Source: an uncultured Lachnospiraceae bacterium (GTDB lineage: Bacteria > Bacillota > Clostridia > Lachnospirales > Lachnospiraceae). From it: a DNA stretch of 64,000 bases. The notes beneath the pieces were generated by a model, which saw nothing but the letters and a program-made list of their open reading frames with translations, was not told the DNA's origin and ran no database searches. The DNA lies in the NCBI GenBank assembly GCA_947174495.1, contig CAMWJC010000004.1:1-64000 (forward strand), given 5' to 3'. Both the position numbers and the translations under genes were made by a program. Positions 300 through 12,871 of the stretch are shown here, in pieces (the first letter of the stretch is position 1; every line of letters starts with the position of its first letter).

Positions 300-1517
300 C
301 TATAAAGCCTTTGATATTAGGTTATATGTCTCTGAATCTGTTAGCGGATTGTATACATATCCTAGTGTAGTGGTTAAGTTGCTATGACCGAGTATTTCTC
401 TAATGCAGTCCAGAGGAACACCGTTTGCATTGAGAAGACTGGCAAAGGTTTTACGCATTTTATGAGTACTTTTTGTATTTATTCCTTGACGTTCTGCATA
501 TTTTTCAAGTACGTATGCAATCTGCCTAGAGGTAATCCGTTCCCCGTTCCTCATAAAGATATAACTGCCCTGTTTTGGTATTTTTTCCAAAATAGATATA
601 GCTTTTGGGACAAGTGGCACATAACGGTCACGGTTTGTTTTCGTATGCTCTACCACATCATAACGATTTGTTTCTTGATTTCTAATTTCCATACGTACAA
701 CATGAATGTCAGGTTTTTCTGTGCAATCTTCCCATTTGAGGGCTACTAATTCACCAACCCGCAGACCTAACAGAAAATCTATTTTGACAGCTAAGAAAAC
801 CGTATCTTCTGTTTCTGCATACATTGTATCAAGATACTTGTTCAGATCTTCTAATTCTTTCGTATTAAAAGTTTCTGTTTTTCCTGTTTTTTTCACTACC
901 TGCCGATATTTCACAAGAATTTTTACATTATCCATTGGATTGACTGTAATATATTTTTTCCGGACAGCATATTCAAAACAACCTAAAAGAATAGTCTTTA
1001 CATTAGTCCATTCTTTTCTGGATATATTGTATTTTTTTACAAGGCGGTTACATTCGGATTCTAATAACAGTGTATCTATCCGGCGGACTGGCATATTATG
1101 TAGTTTTGACCGCTCAAAATAACGCTTGTAATGCTGTATATGGCGTTTAATCGTGTTAGGACTATCGGTAATAGTCTTTTTGTATTCCAGCCATTCTAAA
1201 AACAAATCAGAGAATATAAACTTGTCAAGGTGCGATTCTTGAAAATAAATCGGGATAAGTTTTTCAAGTAGCGCATCTTTCGTTTGTGCGCGGATAATTT
1301 TTCTTTCCCCGTTCGCGTCCCTATAATATGTCTGCCATCGTCCCTTTTCGGAGTTTGGTTCTGTGATTTTATAGGGGTGCATTTTTGATAATAACTTTTC
1401 TTTTTGTGCGTTCATAATTGCTTCTTGTATGTTGTCTGTATATATTATATCATCGGCGATATTTGCAGACAAGATATTGAATTGATTAAGTTTTTGATTG
1501 TTGCTTTTTCTTGCCAT
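300..1517 (-). CDS. int: Tyrosine recombinase / integrase
   Basis: A 405-residue site-specific recombinase that would insert and excise the element at tRNA-Gly. It has an N-terminal arm-binding region (about 50-95), a SAM-like core-binding domain (about 100-200) and a C-terminal catalytic domain. The catalytic set is visible: R253 in GLRVGELVALKW, K293, H352-x-x-R355, H378 in LGHSN and Y387. The start used here is the ATG at 1517, which has AAAGGAG about ten bases upstream; an ATG 29 codons earlier lacks such a site. The gene points inward from attL and its last codon is about 80 bp from the att core, as usual for Tn916-type integrases. It is last in the leftward gene series rep-int. Confidence 0.92.
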   Translation of the reverse strand: MARKSNNQKLNQFNILSANIADDIIYTDNIQEAIMNAQKEKLLSKMHPYKITEPNSEKGRWQTYYRDANGERKIIRAQTKDALLEKLIPIYFQESHLDKFIFSDLFLEWLEYKKTITDSPNTIKRHIQHYKRYFERSKLHNMPVRRIDTLLLESECNRLVKKYNISRKEWTNVKTILLGCFEYAVRKKYITVNPMDNVKILVKYRQVVKKTGKTETFNTKELEDLNKYLDTMYAETEDTVFLAVKIDFLLGLRVGELVALKWEDCTEKPDIHVVRMEIRNQETNRYDVVEHTKTNRDRYVPLVPKAISILEKIPKQGSYIFMRNGERITSRQIAYVLEKYAERQGINTKSTHKMRKTFASLLNANGVPLDCIREILGHSNLTTTLGYVYNPLTDSETYNLISKAL

Positions 1518-1640
1518 TGCAAATATCTCTCCTTTCTGGTAACATTCTTTTTTATAAGTAACTTGAAAATTACCGTAATGTATATCTTTTCTATATACAG
1601 ACACAATGTTTTATCTTGGCAAAATATCTTTATATATTTC

Positions 1641-2876
1641 TTACGTACTTGTCTTATCTATGTTCTCTTCCTTTCCTGCCGGAGCGGTATTTTCAGTTTC
1701 CTCACATGGTGCTTCGGTGAACAGGGATTCAAATAGGTCTTTCGGGTCACTGGCGGGGCAGGCCTTTTCCCGGTTTTGTTTGGAATAGCTGTTTTCTTTT
1801 TCGGCATTATCCACAGCGCAGTAAGTTTTTTTCTCCCTATCATATTCGACTGCACGGATATGAGATGCGTCCATTTCAATGGTCAGAGTAATCCTTCTAA
1901 GCAGCTGTTCCAGACCGTCAACAGAATCCTCGGAGGAATTGCTAAACAACTGACAGTAGATTTCTTCCGGGTCATATGGAGAGGTGATGAGAATCAGGTC
2001 ACAGGCAAGTGGCTTGTCATTGTATCTGGACGGAGCCATGACCTGACTGCCGAAAGGGTCTAGGATACGCAACAAATCCGCATATTTCATCATGTCAGCC
2101 CGGAGTTCGTCAATTATCATGGTATGTTCACCAGAATAATTCTGGAAAAGGTCACGACTGCTTCCCGTAATGAAGTAAGGCTGGTTTGTTTTTTCAGCGT
2201 ATTCTCTTGCTAAGCTTGTCTTTCCTGTTCCCGATTCCCCGCTAATCCATATGACTTTTATCCGTTTCCCGCTCTTTTTCATTTCCTCCCGCCATTTAGC
2301 CGCCTCAAATTGCAGGTGTTTACACCACACATCTTCAATCTGGCGTTTCATTCTCCCGTACTGGTTTCCGTTCAGTTTTCTTTCCAGTTCCTCTTTCGTG
2401 ATTTCCCCTTTATATAGGGAATTTAAAAGGATACTGCTGTTTGCTGTCTGTATGCTCTTTTTGACTTCTTCCGTTATCCGCCGTATCTCTTCCAGATAAT
2501 TAAAATTTGCTTTGACATTTTCCGGCGGATACTGGTGTTTGCTGATGGATTTTTCTGTAGCGTGGATAAGGTAAGCATAGCCGTTTTCATCTTTCCCTTT
2601 CCACATTTGCAGGTACTGTGGCTCGTCTCCGAGTTCCTTGGCAATGCTGTTGACGGAACGGGCATTTTCAAAGGACATCATCACATGTACGTGGTCTTCT
2701 GCGGGTTCTCCCTTTTCATTAACATCACTGTCATGCAAAATCAGTGCATATTTCTTCGGTGCTAGTTTTTCCAGCAGTTCGGTTAAATGCTCAATGGTTT
2801 TGGCTGGGAGTTTGTCTATCTGTTGTGTGTACATCATGTTTTTGGCTCTGGCACGGCAGTTTTCGTTATCGCTCAT
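1641..2876 (-). CDS. HUH replication initiator with SF3-type helicase (CRESS-like Rep)
   Basis: A 411-residue protein likely to nick and unwind the element DNA for rolling-circle replication, and possibly to act as its mobilisation relaxase. The N-terminal Rep_OBD-type endonuclease shows YALILHDSD (43-51), the HUH motif HVHVMMSF (62-69) and the tyrosine motif YAYLIH (100-105). The C-terminal ATPase shows Walker A GESGTGKT (213-220), Walker B MIIDEL (253-258), a motif C-like ILITSPYDP (296-304) and a possible arginine finger LLRRI (325-329). This two-domain order is that of eukaryotic CRESS-DNA virus Reps and of related bacterial pCRESS plasmids. Two strong inverted repeats lie directly upstream (2942-3038). 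The C-terminal tail of about 60 residues is acidic and low-complexity. Confidence 0.85.
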   Translation of the reverse strand: MSDNENCRARAKNMMYTQQIDKLPAKTIEHLTELLEKLAPKKYALILHDSDVNEKGEPAEDHVHVMMSFENARSVNSIAKELGDEPQYLQMWKGKDENGYAYLIHATEKSISKHQYPPENVKANFNYLEEIRRITEEVKKSIQTANSSILLNSLYKGEITKEELERKLNGNQYGRMKRQIEDVWCKHLQFEAAKWREEMKKSGKRIKVIWISGESGTGKTSLAREYAEKTNQPYFITGSSRDLFQNYSGEHTMIIDELRADMMKYADLLRILDPFGSQVMAPSRYNDKPLACDLILITSPYDPEEIYCQLFSNSSEDSVDGLEQLLRRITLTIEMDASHIRAVEYDREKKTYCAVDNAEKENSYSKQNREKACPASDPKDLFESLFTEAPCEETENTAPAGKEENIDKTST

Positions 2877-2941
2877 TTTGGTGTTGCTCCTTTCCTTGAT
2901 TTTACTGTGCTTCTGGATATTTCTGACACTTTGACACCGTG

Positions 2942-3038
2942 GTTTTCTGGCGGTATAACAAGCCCACCGCCAGAAAACAAAAGCTTTTTAAAGAAATTGG
3001 CATTGACACCACGATCCCGGCAAGCCGGAATCGTGGTG
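2942..3038. other. Candidate origin (ori/oriT): two strong inverted repeats
   Basis: In the gap between tcpA and rep, a perfect 13-bp inverted repeat (2942-2954 with 2966-2978) encloses an 11-nt loop containing ATAACAAG. A second hairpin has a 9-bp outer stem (3007-3015 with 3030-3038) and an inner CCGGC-AA-GCCGG. TGACAC occurs at 2924, 2932 and 3004 as possible iterons. HUH Reps nick at or near such hairpin loops, and the position just upstream of rep fits an origin. The nick site is inference. The T run after the second hairpin would also allow termination on the + strand. Confidence 0.55.
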
Positions 3039-3043
3039 GATTT

Positions 3044-4408
3044 TTATTCTTTGGGGGCATAGTATTCGTTCACCAGTCTCCGCAGTTCCGCGTAAACTTC
3101 AAATTCCATGTTCGGAAAATGAAGATAACACGGCATATCGTGTACGCCGTCCGTGGAGGAAAACCAGCAGTCCCCGGCTCCATAAGCGCGCCCTACATTC
3201 AGGCACCTCAACCGTTCACTGTTCCAAATCAGCCGGGCTTCTTCCACCGTGGGCTTGAACAGAATTTTGGTTGTCAATGCTGATTTCAGCATTGAAGGCA
3301 GTCCACCTTCTTCCACGGACGCCTCCGCAATGGAGATAATAACAAAGCACCCGGCAGACGCCCCCATGGTTATAATGCGTTTCAGAGAATCCTCAAAACC
3401 AGCAAGATTGAATCCCCCGTCCCCCTTGGCAGGTTTCCGGAGGAGGCATTTCAATGTCACATATTCATCAATGAATAGGAAACTCGGGTTCATTCCTGCG
3501 TCCCACCATTTGACGGCATTCCCGGTCTCTTCTGAAAGCCGGTTCAATACTGCCTGCCGGGTTCGCATCGTCTCTTCAAATTCTTTCATCTTCGTTATGA
3601 CTGGTTCAGCGTCCCCGTTGGGGTTTACCGTAAGGGTACGGGGGATTCTTGACAGTTCCGCAAGTTTCGGGTCAATGATTATAACATTGGAATCATACTC
3701 GTCCCGTCCATGCTGTAAGACTGAAAGCAGGATTGCAATAATACCCGTAGTCTTCCCACTCCTTGTTTTTCCGGCAACAAGAATACTGCCGGAGGTCTTA
3801 AGGTCAATAAATGTTTCCGTGTCAATCGGGATTTTCGTCTTGTCCGGCGATTTCAGCCTTTCTGTGGAATACGCCGTCAGGCTTTTATCTGCCAGCACAT
3901 CTACAATCCGGTAAGTCACGCGGTTAAAGGCTTCGTCTGCTTCGCTGCTGATTACTGCATACTGTCTGTATCTCCCGTTTATGGAAGAGGATATGGCGGG
4001 TGCAATCTTCAATAAATCCTCTACTGTACGTGATACAGTATCAATAGTGAGGTCAAATATTGTACTGTTGATTTTCCGGCACTTAACAGGCGGGAGCACT
4101 TCGCCGTCTTTAAAATTCAGCGGGTTCCCATACCTTGGGTCAAACAGCCTCTTCTTGACACAGCATTCTATCCGCTTTCTGTCGCCTCCCATAACATGCA
4201 GGGCAAGCCATACCGTAAGCAGGACAACTGCCCCCAGCATGGACATGTCGGAAATTTTCCCGAAAACAGGGTTCATACCGAACACGTCTGACTGGTTTAT
4301 GGCTCTTATCAGGTTAAAAAACAATGAAAAAAAGAGGGAGAATCCCCCCGCCGCAAGAATCCAAGCGGTGGGGGAAATGTAAGGTCTTCCCTTCGCATAA
4401 TGCATCAT
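3044..4408 (-). CDS. FtsK/SpoIIIE-family DNA translocase, TcpA-like
   Basis: A 454-residue membrane-anchored ATPase probably acting as coupling protein or DNA pump for the element. Two hydrophobic segments (about 14-34 and 53-72) precede a cytosolic motor with Walker A GKTRSGKTT (213-221), the strand NVIIIDPK (241-248) and Walker B SFLFIDEY (309-316). The family includes Tn916 ORF21 and TcpA of clostridial plasmids, which handle DNA entering the conjugation channel. An ATG with AGAGAGG upstream supports the start. It lies 19 bp downstream of the DUF961 gene, as in Tn916-like modules, and in front of the candidate origin and rep. Confidence 0.85.
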   Translation of the reverse strand: MMHYAKGRPYISPTAWILAAGGFSLFFSLFFNLIRAINQSDVFGMNPVFGKISDMSMLGAVVLLTVWLALHVMGGDRKRIECCVKKRLFDPRYGNPLNFKDGEVLPPVKCRKINSTIFDLTIDTVSRTVEDLLKIAPAISSSINGRYRQYAVISSEADEAFNRVTYRIVDVLADKSLTAYSTERLKSPDKTKIPIDTETFIDLKTSGSILVAGKTRSGKTTGIIAILLSVLQHGRDEYDSNVIIIDPKLAELSRIPRTLTVNPNGDAEPVITKMKEFEETMRTRQAVLNRLSEETGNAVKWWDAGMNPSFLFIDEYVTLKCLLRKPAKGDGGFNLAGFEDSLKRIITMGASAGCFVIISIAEASVEEGGLPSMLKSALTTKILFKPTVEEARLIWNSERLRCLNVGRAYGAGDCWFSSTDGVHDMPCYLHFPNMEFEVYAELRRLVNEYYAPKE

Positions 4409-9528: not shown

Positions 9529-10368
9529 ATGGAATATGTAGAATTAAATAACGGAGTAAAAATGCCTATGCTTGGATACGGAGTCTATCAGACACCGCCG
9601 GAGCAGACAGAAAGGTGCGTGCTGGATGCAATCAACATAGGATACAGAAGCATTGATACCGCGCAGGCTTATGGAAATGAGGAAGGAGTAGGAAATGCCA
9701 TAGCAAAGTGCGGGCTGCCAAGAGAAGAGTTCTTCATTACCACCAAGGTATGGATATCCAATGCAGGATATGAGAAAGCAAAAGCCTCTATTGAGGAATC
9801 TTTAAGGAAGCTACAGGTTTCCTATATTGACCTGTTACTGATCCATCAGCCGTTTGGTGATTATTATGGAACTTACCGGGCAATGGAGGAGGCATACAAA
9901 GAAGGAAAGGTAAGGGCAATCGGCGTATCCAACTTTTATCCTGACAGGTATATAGATATCCATCATTTTGCAGAGGTTAAGCCGGCTGTCAACCAGGTGG
10001 AGACTCATGTATTCCAGCAGCAGAAAATTGCGAAGGAATATATGAAGAAAAACGGCACGCAGATTGAGTCATGGGGACCGTTCGCAGAGGGAAAAAATGA
10101 TTACTTTAATAATCCTGTTTTAAAAGAAGTCGGTGTATGTCATGGTAAATCTGCGGCACAGGTTGCCTTACGCTTTCTGATTCAGAGTGGTGTGGTGGTA
10201 ATTCCAAAATCTACACATAAGGAAAGGATGGAGGAAAACTTCAATGTGTTTGATTTTGAACTGACAGCGGACGAGATGGCAAAGGTGGAAGCACTGGATG
10301 GCGGAGAAAGTCTGTTCTTTTCTCATCACGATCCCAAAACAGTAGAATGGTTTATGACGTTTGTATAA
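9529..10368 (+). CDS. Aldo/keto reductase
   Basis: A 279-residue NAD(P)H-dependent oxidoreductase of the AKR superfamily, reducing carbonyl compounds in the cytosol. The catalytic tetrad is in place: D43, Y48, K73 and H106 (SIDTAQAYGN, TTKVW, LLIHQPFG). The C-terminal cofactor region has VVIPKSTHKERMEEN. The length and the GYGVYQTPP start resemble the 2,5-diketo-gluconate reductase group; the natural substrate cannot be read from sequence. A GGAGG site precedes the ATG. Control by the divergent LysR gene is likely. Confidence 0.9.
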   Translation: MEYVELNNGVKMPMLGYGVYQTPPEQTERCVLDAINIGYRSIDTAQAYGNEEGVGNAIAKCGLPREEFFITTKVWISNAGYEKAKASIEESLRKLQVSYIDLLLIHQPFGDYYGTYRAMEEAYKEGKVRAIGVSNFYPDRYIDIHHFAEVKPAVNQVETHVFQQQKIAKEYMKKNGTQIESWGPFAEGKNDYFNNPVLKEVGVCHGKSAAQVALRFLIQSGVVVIPKSTHKERMEENFNVFDFELTADEMAKVEALDGGESLFFSHHDPKTVEWFMTFV

Positions 10369-10374
10369 AAGTGG

Positions 10375-10411
10375 AGACCGTACCTGTAAGGAGAAGCAGA
10401 TACGGTCTTTT
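10375..10411 (+). terminator. Intrinsic terminator between convergent genes
   Basis: AGACCGTA (10375-10382) pairs with TACGGTCT (10401-10408), then T's. It ends the aldo/keto reductase transcript and faces the AraC gene end. Confidence 0.75.
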
Positions 10412-10428
10412 CTGGTTCTGTTGTAAAT

Positions 10429-11406
10429 TTAGTTGTTTTCCTGTAAAGAAACCGGCTGTTTTGCTTTTTCACATAATTGCAGAGTATCTGCTGTCTGCCT
10501 TTCAACATGCACTTTAAGGTGTCCGATATCCTCAATCCGCTCTTTTAGCCATGAACGGACCTCGGTGTCGGAAGGTGTTGTGCTGCCGAAAATGGCAGTA
10601 TCCGGTTTCAATGTAATTTCTGTACCTGATGGATGTTCCGTACTTTCACTTAGCACTTCATGTTGCGGAATTCCGCGGACATAGTCCTGCTTAAAACACA
10701 TACCGTCTCTATAGACACATACCTGTAGGCTTTCGCAGAGAGAATTGACTGTCTGCATTCCAATTCCTGAAAAATCTCCCATTTGGCTGTATTCAGCATT
10801 GGTGATCGGGTGTCCTGCAAGTATTTTATCAAGAATCACTTGATCGGCATGTTTGTTTTGGGTTAAGGGGATTCCTCTTCCGTTATCGGTAATTTTAATT
10901 GTTCCATCATCTGCGATAGTTACTTCAATTTCAGTACAATAGCCTTCCTTTGCTTCTTTTATGGATTCTGTGAGAACCTCGTAGATAAGCTGGTGTAAAT
11001 TTTCTTGTAATTTGTCAGTGTAATTTGTTTCCATTTTTTTCCTCCTGAAATTTGTGACAGGTACGACATATTCGGGCACACGGTAAGAAGTCATATACTT
11101 TTTGACGGTGCTCGGTGTCGAACCAAAAAGCTGTGTAAAAGCTCTTGTAAAACCTTCATGTGAGTCAAATGCATACATGAGTGAAACATCCAGAACTTTT
11201 TTCCCTTCCAACAAAGACGTTATAGCATGCTGCAATTTCCTGATCCGGATGTATCCTGTCACGGGCATGCCCATTGCCTCTGAAAATAATTTGCTAAAAT
11301 AGAAAGGGCTGTAACCTGCAAGTTCAGCTAACTCTCCCAAGGTAATTTTTTCATAAATATGCGTATCGATATAAGTGAGTATTTGGCCTAAATCGATTGT
11401 TACCAT
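10429..11406 (-). CDS. AraC-type HTH fused to GyrB-like GHKL ATPase domain
   Basis: A 325-residue protein with an AraC DNA-binding domain (about 1-110, two HTHs, LGELAELAGYSPFYFSKLFS) followed by a GyrB-like ATPase domain (from about 125). The ATPase keeps DNGRGIP (G1 box), the alternating TEIEVTIADDGTIKITDN and a G2-like GDFSGIGMQTVNSL. The N-box reads EVLTESIKEA where GyrB has E-x-x-D-N-x-x-D-E, so the Mg-chelating Asn is missing. At the junction an AGGAGG with a 6-nt spacer precedes an in-frame ATG at 11034, which would yield a free 201-residue ATPase domain. The start at 11406 has GAGGTG; an ATG seven codons earlier has none. Target genes are unknown. Confidence 0.8.
   Translation of the reverse strand: MVTIDLGQILTYIDTHIYEKITLGELAELAGYSPFYFSKLFSEAMGMPVTGYIRIRKLQHAITSLLEGKKVLDVSLMYAFDSHEGFTRAFTQLFGSTPSTVKKYMTSYRVPEYVVPVTNFRRKKMETNYTDKLQENLHQLIYEVLTESIKEAKEGYCTEIEVTIADDGTIKITDNGRGIPLTQNKHADQVILDKILAGHPITNAEYSQMGDFSGIGMQTVNSLCESLQVCVYRDGMCFKQDYVRGIPQHEVLSESTEHPSGTEITLKPDTAIFGSTTPSDTEVRSWLKERIEDIGHLKVHVERQTADTLQLCEKAKQPVSLQENN
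11041..11046 (-). promoter_or_regulatory. Internal Shine-Dalgarno at the AraC/GyrB-like junction
   Basis: On the minus strand AGGAGG is followed by AAAAAA and an in-frame ATG (11034). This is a better initiation site than that of the full-length protein, so a separate ATPase-domain product is plausible. Confidence 0.6.
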
Positions 11407-11580
11407 ATATGCACCTCGCATTTTCACTATGAATGAAGCTCATAATGATAGTATTATGACAAGCCTGATGCTTCATATCAGTCTTGTTAGTTATATATTA
11501 ATATAATTATATCGGCATTTCTTGACCGTAAATATTCTTTGAAAAGGATATCGAAGGATAAAGTCATTTGACCAGACGTC

Positions 11581-11609
11581 TTTACAAAATCCGATAAAAA
11601 CTATATACT
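11581..11609 (+). promoter_or_regulatory. Promoter of the Cys-rich surface protein gene
   Basis: TTTACA (11581-11586), a 17-bp spacer and TATACT (11604-11609), about 60 bp before the start codon at 11669. The rest of 11407-11668 also holds an imperfect ACAAG...CTTGT inverted repeat near 11459-11487 close to the AraC gene start. Confidence 0.6.
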
Positions 11610-11668
11610 AAACATATGAAAATTATGCATTGCAAAATCTTGCGATGAGTGACTAATGGAGAACCCGT

Positions 11669-12871
11669 ATGAGTGGATTAGTGAAAGTTTTGACCGGTAT
11701 ATTGGGTGTGATGGCAGTGGTTGCCTGTCTTGCTACTATAGGAATTATAGGATATTCCATGACAGGGGCAGGAGCGGAGAAGAATGTGGATGTGACTGCG
11801 GAAGCAACTGTGTCACCGATAGTAGATCAGGTGCTGGTAACGGCAGTCCCGGAACAGACACCGGGAGAGGCAGAACCTTCTCAAAGTGCAGAACCGGTGC
11901 AGACACCCAGACCGATAGGAAATGCAGATCATATTCATGATTATGAAGAGACAATGGTTAAAAGAGCGACCTGTTATAGTGCAGGGAAAGTCAGATACAT
12001 TTGTGAGTGCGGAGATGAATACTATGTGGATATTATGTCCATAGGACATGTAGCGGGTGATTGGGAGATGACCAGAATCCCAACCACAGAAAGAGACGGC
12101 ATCCGGGTACAGAAGTGTATCTATTGTGATGACATTGTGGCTCAGGAAAATGTTCTTTTTGTAGATGAAACTAAGAAGGACGAAGACAGCAATGGAAGCG
12201 AAAGTGGAGACGGCACTGATAAAGACGAGCCACATATTCACCAGTATACGGCAGAAATTGTCAGAGAGCCTTCTTGTATTCTGGCAGGATTAAGAAAATA
12301 CACATGCAGTTGTGGTAATTTTTATACGGAAATGATTCCTGCACCGGGACATGTGGCGACTGATTGGACTGTGGCGGAGGAGCCGACTACAACTTATATG
12401 GGAACGGAACAGAGAACCTGCAGCGTGTGCGGCGTGGTTTTGGATTCCAGACCAGTTCCTATGCTTTCTCCAAGTCCGTCAGCAAGTGCTGCCGCAACTG
12501 GCAATGCGCAGACCACTACTCAGCCCACCACACAGCCGACAGCAACTTTGACGATAGTGCCTACATCGGGTAGTACCACTACGCAGACAGCATCACCTGG
12601 TGCATCGGCTACTCCGTCGGCAACACCGCATTCACATCAGTACAGATCCTATGTGTTAAAGGAGGCAAACTGTACAGAGAAAGGGATCAGATCCTTTGTA
12701 TGTAATTGTGGAAGCAGCTACGCAGAAAGCATAGAACTGGATCTCAACAGACACAGCTATCGTGCAGTGGTGATTCCACCTACCCAGTTCACGACGGGAC
12801 AGACGGTTTATACCTGCGTCAGATGCAATTATAGTTATTTTGATAATCTTACGCCTGCACTTGGTAAATAG
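11669..12871 (+). CDS. Membrane-anchored protein with three Cys-rich repeats
   Basis: A 400-residue surface protein of unknown function. A single N-terminal membrane segment (about 8-33) is followed by a Pro/Thr/Glu-rich spacer and three repeats of about 70 residues (88-157, 189-258, 321-391). Each begins with a H-x-H pair plus a Tyr (HIHDY, HIHQY, HSHQY), then a lone Cys, a C-x-C-G and a final C-x-x-C (ICECGD, CSCGN, CNCGS; CIYCD, CSVCG, CVRCN), which suggests one zinc or disulphide-bonded unit per repeat. A long Thr/Ser/Pro linker (about 265-320) separates repeats 2 and 3. Similar Cys units occur in large clostridial surface proteins. It has its own promoter. Confidence 0.65.
   Translation: MSGLVKVLTGILGVMAVVACLATIGIIGYSMTGAGAEKNVDVTAEATVSPIVDQVLVTAVPEQTPGEAEPSQSAEPVQTPRPIGNADHIHDYEETMVKRATCYSAGKVRYICECGDEYYVDIMSIGHVAGDWEMTRIPTTERDGIRVQKCIYCDDIVAQENVLFVDETKKDEDSNGSESGDGTDKDEPHIHQYTAEIVREPSCILAGLRKYTCSCGNFYTEMIPAPGHVATDWTVAEEPTTTYMGTEQRTCSVCGVVLDSRPVPMLSPSPSASAAATGNAQTTTQPTTQPTATLTIVPTSGSTTTQTASPGASATPSATPHSHQYRSYVLKEANCTEKGIRSFVCNCGSSYAESIELDLNRHSYRAVVIPPTQFTTGQTVYTCVRCNYSYFDNLTPALGK

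Follow-up and report, generated by a model that had tools for sequence, protein, structure and literature searches.

Hybrid two-component systems combine a HATPase domain and an AraC output domain in one chain. In GyrB, the use of ATP involves the catalytic residue E42, the Mg-binding N46, K103, Y109 and the lid GGLHGVG, and R136 is a classic contact for aminocoumarins. Excerpts of PMC7997583 name D73, G77 and T165 as residues that hold a coumarin inhibitor, and R136 as one that binds different inhibitors of the GyrB site. Excerpts of PMC2893106 and PMC6078987 describe TipAL and TipAS as two in-frame products of one gene that is subject to autoinduction. An effector-like domain can also occur on its own, as in the GyrI-like Cass2 (excerpt of PMC3048380). 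Among the matches listed from one literature library, at the level of titles, no published AraC-GyrB fusion was found, nor were published internal starts in AraC regulators among the matches listed there; the excerpt of PMC11005335, a paper from the internal-start literature, contains no AraC.

The locus described here lies in the window, a stretch of 64,000 nucleotides from an uncultured Lachnospiraceae bacterium (contig CAMWJC010000004.1). A sequence-only reading had described an AraC regulator fused to a degenerate GyrB-like ATPase, with a start site at the junction. Loci (L) and genomes (G) are given by our own numbers.

The AraC-GyrB fusion and its family

The fused gene and its domains are located as follows.

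10429..11406, (-) strand: fused gene, AraC DNA-binding plus GyrB-like GHKL domain, 325 aa from the ATG at 11406
11095..11385, (-) strand: AraC two-HTH domain (Pfam HTH_18; NCBIfam RobA 2.5e-18, RamA 2.1e-17)
10483..11007, (-) strand: GyrB-type GHKL domain without transducer domain (homology and residue mapping)
10867..10887, (-) strand: G1 box DNGRGIP, equivalent to E. coli GyrB D73-P79 (alignment)

The in-frame joining of an AraC and a GyrB-type GHKL domain was borne out by the reading frame, by Pfam and by matches to GyrB and ParE in the PDB. With an upstream in-frame GTG at 11427 the fused frame spans 10429-11427 (-) and encodes 332 aa. Both HTH_18 (5.7e-17, 62.2 bits against a cut-off of 33.6) and HATPase_c (2.8e-11) scored above the Pfam cut-off in the window protein. 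HTH_18 did so in three more members as well, and HATPase_c stayed slightly below its cut-off in three other members (22.1-25.4 against 26.4 bits). The closest named NCBIfam models for the AraC part were RobA, RamA, SoxS and MarA. The NCBIfam gyrB model matched protein residues 131-308 with its positions 37-211 of 641; by this match the chain stops after the GHKL domain, and the transducer and TOPRIM domains are absent. A profile of 19 members matched 63 PDB sequences, the best at 2.5e-31, and the best 60 of these 63 were GyrB, ParE and a few topoisomerase II sequences. No histidine-kinase dimerisation or receiver domains appeared in Pfam scans of four members. The fused copy comes in addition to a type II topoisomerase B subunit of 647 aa (L003) that the same genome encodes separately.

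Beyond the window the family comprises 40 loci, 33 of them full-length, one internally deleted (L062) and six fragments, from Lachnospiraceae/Clostridia and from Treponema and its kin. Searches with the whole protein turned up full-length fusions in 4 of 60 genomes of a set of relatives (G000, G032, G021 and G005) and in 5 of 397 genomes of a family set, the own genome being included in both counts. The gene is thus patchy and accessory. A profile built on the region that follows the G1 box, picked as differing from GyrB, matched 43 loci in the species collection; three were true GyrB and 40 were family members, some of them the same genes as the homologues from the whole-protein searches. The stretch QxYVRGxxQH was fixed by the scan pattern, so its conservation is by choice. 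True GyrB-type matches (L063, L065, L066, L067 and L068) were kept out of the family counts and served as references. Excluded from the alignment were L049 and L064, which are cut by contig ends, L044, which is cut and frame-broken, and L038, L054 and L061, which are broken, deleted or rearranged. The damage in L038, L054, L061 and L062 consists of a frame break, deletions joining AraC and GHKL parts, and rearrangement, and some of it may reflect assembly errors. In 12 carrier genomes the gene was single in ten, present twice in G459 and represented in G457 by one copy split into two frames.

The fusion is not a rare joining of otherwise separate genes, a possibility that the sequence-only reading had raised: there are 33 other full-length fusions, and no intact unfused GyrB-like copy was seen in the set of relatives, the family set or the species collection. 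In a tree of GHKL domains the family formed one clade against 15 GyrB/ParE rows (support 100/100). Treponema was nested within Firmicutes, adjoining L033 (99/98), which points to transfer of the gene from Firmicutes to Treponema. The inner order of this tree is not firm because the tree program warned of long branches. A phage or plasmid origin was rejected, since tblastn against 72,556 plasmid and 50,697 phage records found no place covering 80% of the protein and viral contigs yielded only two full-size GyrB-type proteins.

Residues were mapped onto E. coli GyrB in 34 rows (L062 left out) and 14 references. E50, D73, R76, G77 and G164 were kept in all 34 rows, R136 in 32, T165 in 29 and the ATP-site residue Y109 in 33. 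P79 was kept in 16 rows and is Lys or Arg in the Treponema branch. K103 was replaced by Pro in 34/34, and H38, G114 and H116 were lost in every row. G119 remained in 11, E42 in 12 and N46 in 18 of the 34; N46 was retained in 17 of 18 Treponema-type rows and in L033, the only member with both E42 and N46, all others lacking at least one. The references keep all mapped residues except R136, which is Arg in five of the 14. In gyrase/topoisomerase IV B homologues of the same order, counting the best matches of those genomes only, R136 occurred in 0/9.

Alignment confirmed that the N-box Asn is replaced, E. coli N46 being Glu in the window protein, and that DNGRGIP is kept. The GyrB catalytic set of E42, N46, lid GGLHGVG and K103 was incomplete in the family, though Y109 was kept. 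Hydrolysis of ATP should be absent, since the family no longer has the ATP lid or K103 and every member except L033 lacks at least one of E42 and N46. The domain thus appears to have given up ATP hydrolysis and to have retained its pocket, and these losses support the earlier proposal of a degenerate GyrB fold, which is probably non-hydrolysing. The decay is selective: E50, D73, R76, G77 and R136 of the adenine/inhibitor pocket remain, and most of the residues for the phosphates and the lid have gone. The loss of the ATP-lid glycines and K103 goes beyond what had been noticed before, as do the conserved promoter motif and the covarying leader described below. The split between kept and lost pocket residues is not clean, as Y109, P79 and T165 illustrate with 33, 16 and 29 of 34 rows.

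The ribosome site in the linker

Two features concern the junction between the domains.

11041..11046, (-) strand: internal Shine-Dalgarno sequence AGGAGG in the linker, conserved in the family
10429..11034, (-) strand: predicted second product, a free GyrB-like domain of 201 aa from the internal ATG at 11034

The AGGAGG-N6-ATG arrangement noted at the junction is indeed present, with AGGAGG at 11046-11041, six A and ATG at 11034-11032. The energy of the internal Shine-Dalgarno sequence in the window gene was -10.3 kcal/mol. Linkers were readable in 37 members, including L038, L044 and L049 and leaving out L054, L061, L062 and L064. Every one of the 37 had a start codon, the best linker start being ATG in 36 and GTG in L033. 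Pairing with the 16S tail reached -7 kcal/mol or lower in 33/37 and -4 or lower in all; the four weaker than -7 were L029, L032, L034 and L048. In the controls, 251 further in-frame ATGs from these genes included only 18 with -7 or better, and the conserved Met of helix 1, a few residues downstream of the linker start, had a strong Shine-Dalgarno sequence in 0/27. The internal start site is conserved over the family.

The spacing between the Shine-Dalgarno sequence and the start was 5-10 nt in 36 members, and L032 has no Shine-Dalgarno core. The core is encoded by RR, EE, KEG, QEN and other codons in differing registers, which indicates that the nucleotides are kept and the linker peptide is not. 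The site is retained across two phyla, even in members only about 37-40% identical to the window protein. Since the best start had been chosen for each linker, the synonymous-codon null was rerun with a best-of-window choice restricted to ATG. Under these conditions 29/35 linkers reached -7 or better, and Fisher values against the null were 8e-6 for 15 representatives below 70% identity, 1e-4 for nine below 60% and 0.016 for four below 50%. These values suggest nucleotide-level selection on the internal site, a claim that we restrict to the GyrB-like family. The internal and the first ribosome site are similar in strength, with medians of -9.3 and -8.1, respectively, and the internal one stronger in 16/35.

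Junction starts are also found in sister AraC genes. Eight other AraC genes of the same genome, a subset of those matched by the genome search, were examined, and six (L002, L005, L006, L007, L008 and L119) carried a junction Shine-Dalgarno sequence and ATG at -7 or better. The site in L004 had -6.3 and L120 had none. The domains that follow these junction starts are GyrI-like, APH-like or unknown. In a larger sample, 27 of 40 other AraC genes with an N-terminal HTH, mutually related and mostly retrieved as GyrI-like matches, reached -7, against 10 of 261 non-AraC ORFs scored over a comparable stretch; the latter were six-frame ORFs of at least 250 aa from the studied loci, not deduplicated, and some may not be genes. 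Codon resampling gave no support for selection in these other AraC genes (p 0.24 on 36; 0.59 on five of the GGDEF group), and codon-level selection as a general AraC trait was not supported. The signal there may stem from the peptide KGGxxM. As most of the examined sister genes have one, the internal start may characterise this type of AraC regulator and not the AraC-GyrB fusion in particular. In E. coli rob no strong internal site occurs, and the one at the junction Met125 is weak (-3.7).

Several other fusions were seen along the way. An AraC-GGDEF fusion lies upstream of the AraC-GyrB gene in the Treponema loci L054 (4981-5901), L037, L042, L046 and L052, adjoining the deleted AraC-GyrB copy in L054, and these fusions have their own Shine-Dalgarno sequence and ATG at the domain junction. 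In a complete Anaerocolumna genome, L038:7403-8188 encodes a fusion of AraC with a bleomycin-resistance/glyoxalase domain near the broken family copy, with a weak junction site (-4.4). In the own genome, L002:505-1818 joins AraC to a domain resembling APH phosphotransferases, and the junction carries AGGAGG and ATG.

Promoter motif and leader RNA

The upstream region contains four features.

11519..11535, (-) strand: conserved motif ATAT-N5-GTCAAGAA, candidate operator at the -35 position (co-conservation)
11495..11500, (-) strand: candidate -10 element TAATAT, 18 bp past CAAGAA
11470..11476, (-) strand: leader strand AUGAAGC, complementary to the downstream hairpin loop
11424..11448, (-) strand: leader hairpin UCAUUAUGA-GCUUCAU-UCAUAGUGA with covarying stem, its 3' side 17 nt before the start codon

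RTCAAGAA occurred upstream of 32/36 family genes, 53-121 nt before the start, where 0.025 per region would be expected, and in 2 of 45 upstream regions of other AraC genes. In the window, L026 and L030 it lies 18 bp ahead of a -10-like box. Among the four upstream regions without the motif, L034 has RTCAAGAA further up and L027, L033 and L062 have partial forms. The shared promoter motif points to autoregulation and is the best sign of self-control.

Counts of the motif in whole genomes did not single out targets. ATAT-N5-RTCAAGAA had 32 sites in eight genomes against 30 for the reversed pattern, and TCAAGAA-N17-19-TANNAT had 135 in seven genomes against 152. Since these counts are about those of the reversed patterns, a motif-based regulon was dropped and no target beyond the gene itself is named. 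The excess in the own genome is small (4 against 1 and 21 against 12 sites), and further targets may exist. A conserved neighbour gene as target was also rejected, because clustering of ORFs over 41 loci gave no cluster in more than eight. The cluster found in eight loci consists of ABC transporters, at no fixed place. The aldo-keto reductase and LysR genes next to the window gene are missing even beside its 93% relative L028. Upstream of the fused gene, window 11669-12871 contains a divergent gene that is retained there in L028 too; its 400-aa product has a hydrophobic stretch at the N-terminus and repeated units rich in His and Cys. Elsewhere in the window, at 300-4408 (-), tyrosine-type integrase, replication-initiation-like and FtsK-like frames have, by eye, the look of an integrative element.

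The leader layout was present in nine Clostridia members (window, L024, L025, L026, L028, L033, L034, L055 and L059). Its hairpin has 6-11 bp and a 7-nt loop and ends 14-20 nt ahead of the start codon. The loop is complementary to the upstream strand at 7/7 positions in eight members and at 6/7 in L055. In eight sequences (seven distinct) all nine stem pairs were changed on both sides and 93.7% of cells were paired, a level reached by 0/500 shuffles. The loop helix was 100% paired in six sequences, with two of seven pairs changed on both sides. Folded singly, six leaders showed no clear gain in stability over shuffles (z -1.95 to 0.02), and a loose search for the layout matched 215/700 shuffled leaders and unrelated layouts in L035 and L042. 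The evidence for the leader is covariation and constant position, not stability. The position of the promoter suggests that the leader is transcribed, and the loop pairing could form either a pseudoknot or an alternative pairing. In L034 (5280-5425), about 146 nt with terminator-like hairpins lie between the pairing strands, and the seven pairs still hold.

Neither the Treponema leaders nor those of L027, L029, L030, L031, L032, L035, L038 and L041 showed this layout. Rfam 15 gave no model match up to E 1 in window 10300-11700. A search of 397 genomes with our leader model R1 under strict filters gave three strong matches (G000, G280 and G416), all ahead of a family gene and all source sequences of the model itself (window, L024 and L033). 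The other 18 listed matches had E values of 0.001 to 0.04 per genome, which is chance level over 397 genomes; the weak match in G062 lies in the leader region of L034, again ahead of a family gene. In the locus set, L059, which lies outside the model, was matched at E 2e-4.

Proposed mechanism and relation to known systems

We tentatively propose, as a quite possible account, that the protein is an autoregulated one-component sensor that works like TipAL/TipAS and uses a non-hydrolysing GyrB pocket as ligand site. The full-length protein would bind ATAT/ACAA-N5-RTCAAGAA at its own -35 region via the Rob/MarA-type AraC domain and control transcription there; binding to the own promoter is suggested by the co-conservation of motif and gene. 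The C-terminal former GyrB GHKL domain, in which the alignment shows the adenine/inhibitor side to be kept, would be the ligand-binding part, and binding of ligand would alter promoter activity. From the same mRNA the conserved internal ribosome site would yield a free GyrB-like domain, a second product that we infer from the conserved Shine-Dalgarno sequence and start codon. This free domain might sequester ligand or join the full-length protein in mixed complexes. In some members the leader upstream of the first ribosome site may set the amount of the DNA-binding form.

Several other explanations address different parts of this proposal and overlap, so their probabilities do not sum to one. 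The junction site could be a relic of fusion, the Shine-Dalgarno sequence and ATG of a formerly separate GyrB-like gene, with only the full-length form at work. We find this somewhat doubtful. That sister AraC genes with unrelated GyrI-like, APH-like and GGDEF domains carry the same junction signal, and that 27 of 40 other N-HTH genes reach -7 with codon-level selection undetected, agrees with a relic; against it, the site persists over two phyla to about 37-40% identity while linker peptide and codon registers change, the synonymous null is rejected at 8e-6 on 15 representatives (weakening to 0.016 on four), and the genome and species-collection searches revealed no intact unfused gene. It is highly improbable that the linker merely slows the ribosome by programmed pausing, so that AraC folds before GHKL, with no initiation. 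The SD-like stretch does lie exactly at the domain boundary, but a properly spaced start codon, present in 36/37 linkers (L032 being without a core), is needless for pausing, and the conserved Met of helix 1 is without a strong site (0/27).

Other alternatives concern the pocket. The GyrB-like domain could be a structural or dimerisation module, or bind a protein such as gyrase, with its pocket empty, as might be thought from the missing transducer domain, the lost lid and K103, and the lack of E42 or N46 everywhere but in L033. We consider this unlikely, since residues serving only a ligand site should decay in an empty pocket, and D73, E50, R76 and G77 do not vary and R136 hardly does, in the midst of ATP residues that are being replaced; a structural role is possible for some of these invariant residues. 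Binding of ATP or ADP without hydrolysis, as a sensor that reports energy state, would fit the retained adenine contacts, the presence of Y109 in 33/34 rows, and that of N46 in 17/18 Treponema-type rows and L033. This seems rather improbable, because all 34 rows have Pro in place of K103 and are without G114 and H116, so that a triphosphate should bind poorly.

Extending the TipAL/TipAS-like sensor that we prefer, one may imagine a drug target turned drug sensor in a self-controlling AraC switch: a GyrB pocket stripped of ATP use with inhibitor contacts kept, including R136, a free pocket acting as decoy, a leader RNA of a new type setting the ratio of the two forms, and AraC as a plug-in platform. 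This wider reading is unlikely to hold as a whole. If true, AraC regulators in these bacteria would be a platform for target- or resistance-derived sensor domains with their own ribosome site. The family, a conserved putative sensor family of gut and rumen bacteria, offers a direct test case for the re-use of the GyrB pocket as a pure sensor, and for asking if internal starts are widely used by bacterial regulators to produce the sensor domain as a separate protein. Should the leader RNA be confirmed, it would be a new regulatory element.

Among known systems, hybrid two-component proteins resemble the family in joining a GHKL ATPase domain to AraC in one chain; here the GHKL domain is of the GyrB type. 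The 24-kDa ATPase domain of GyrB/ParE is homologous over residues about 36-190, but the family is without the transducer, TOPRIM domain and N-terminal arm and has lost the lid GGLHGVG, K103 and H38. Rob and the AraC-GyrI-like proteins (PF12833 + PF06445) have the identical domain order, with the GyrI-like domain replaced here by a GyrB-derived one, and many AraC-GyrI-like members from Clostridia have a start codon at the junction as AraC-GyrB does. TipAL/TipAS of Streptomyces, as far as the cited excerpts describe TipA, shares the N-terminal HTH and has a drug-binding domain at the C-terminus. Its two in-frame products and the raising of its own expression have counterparts here that are predicted from sequence, and the internal in-frame ribosome site between HTH and sensor is found as a sequence signal. 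TipAL/TipAS differs in having a MerR HTH and the TipAS fold where AraC-GyrB has an AraC HTH and a GyrB GHKL domain. Since its HTH is of the AraC and not the MerR type, the family is not a member of TipAL/TipAS and would at most work alike.
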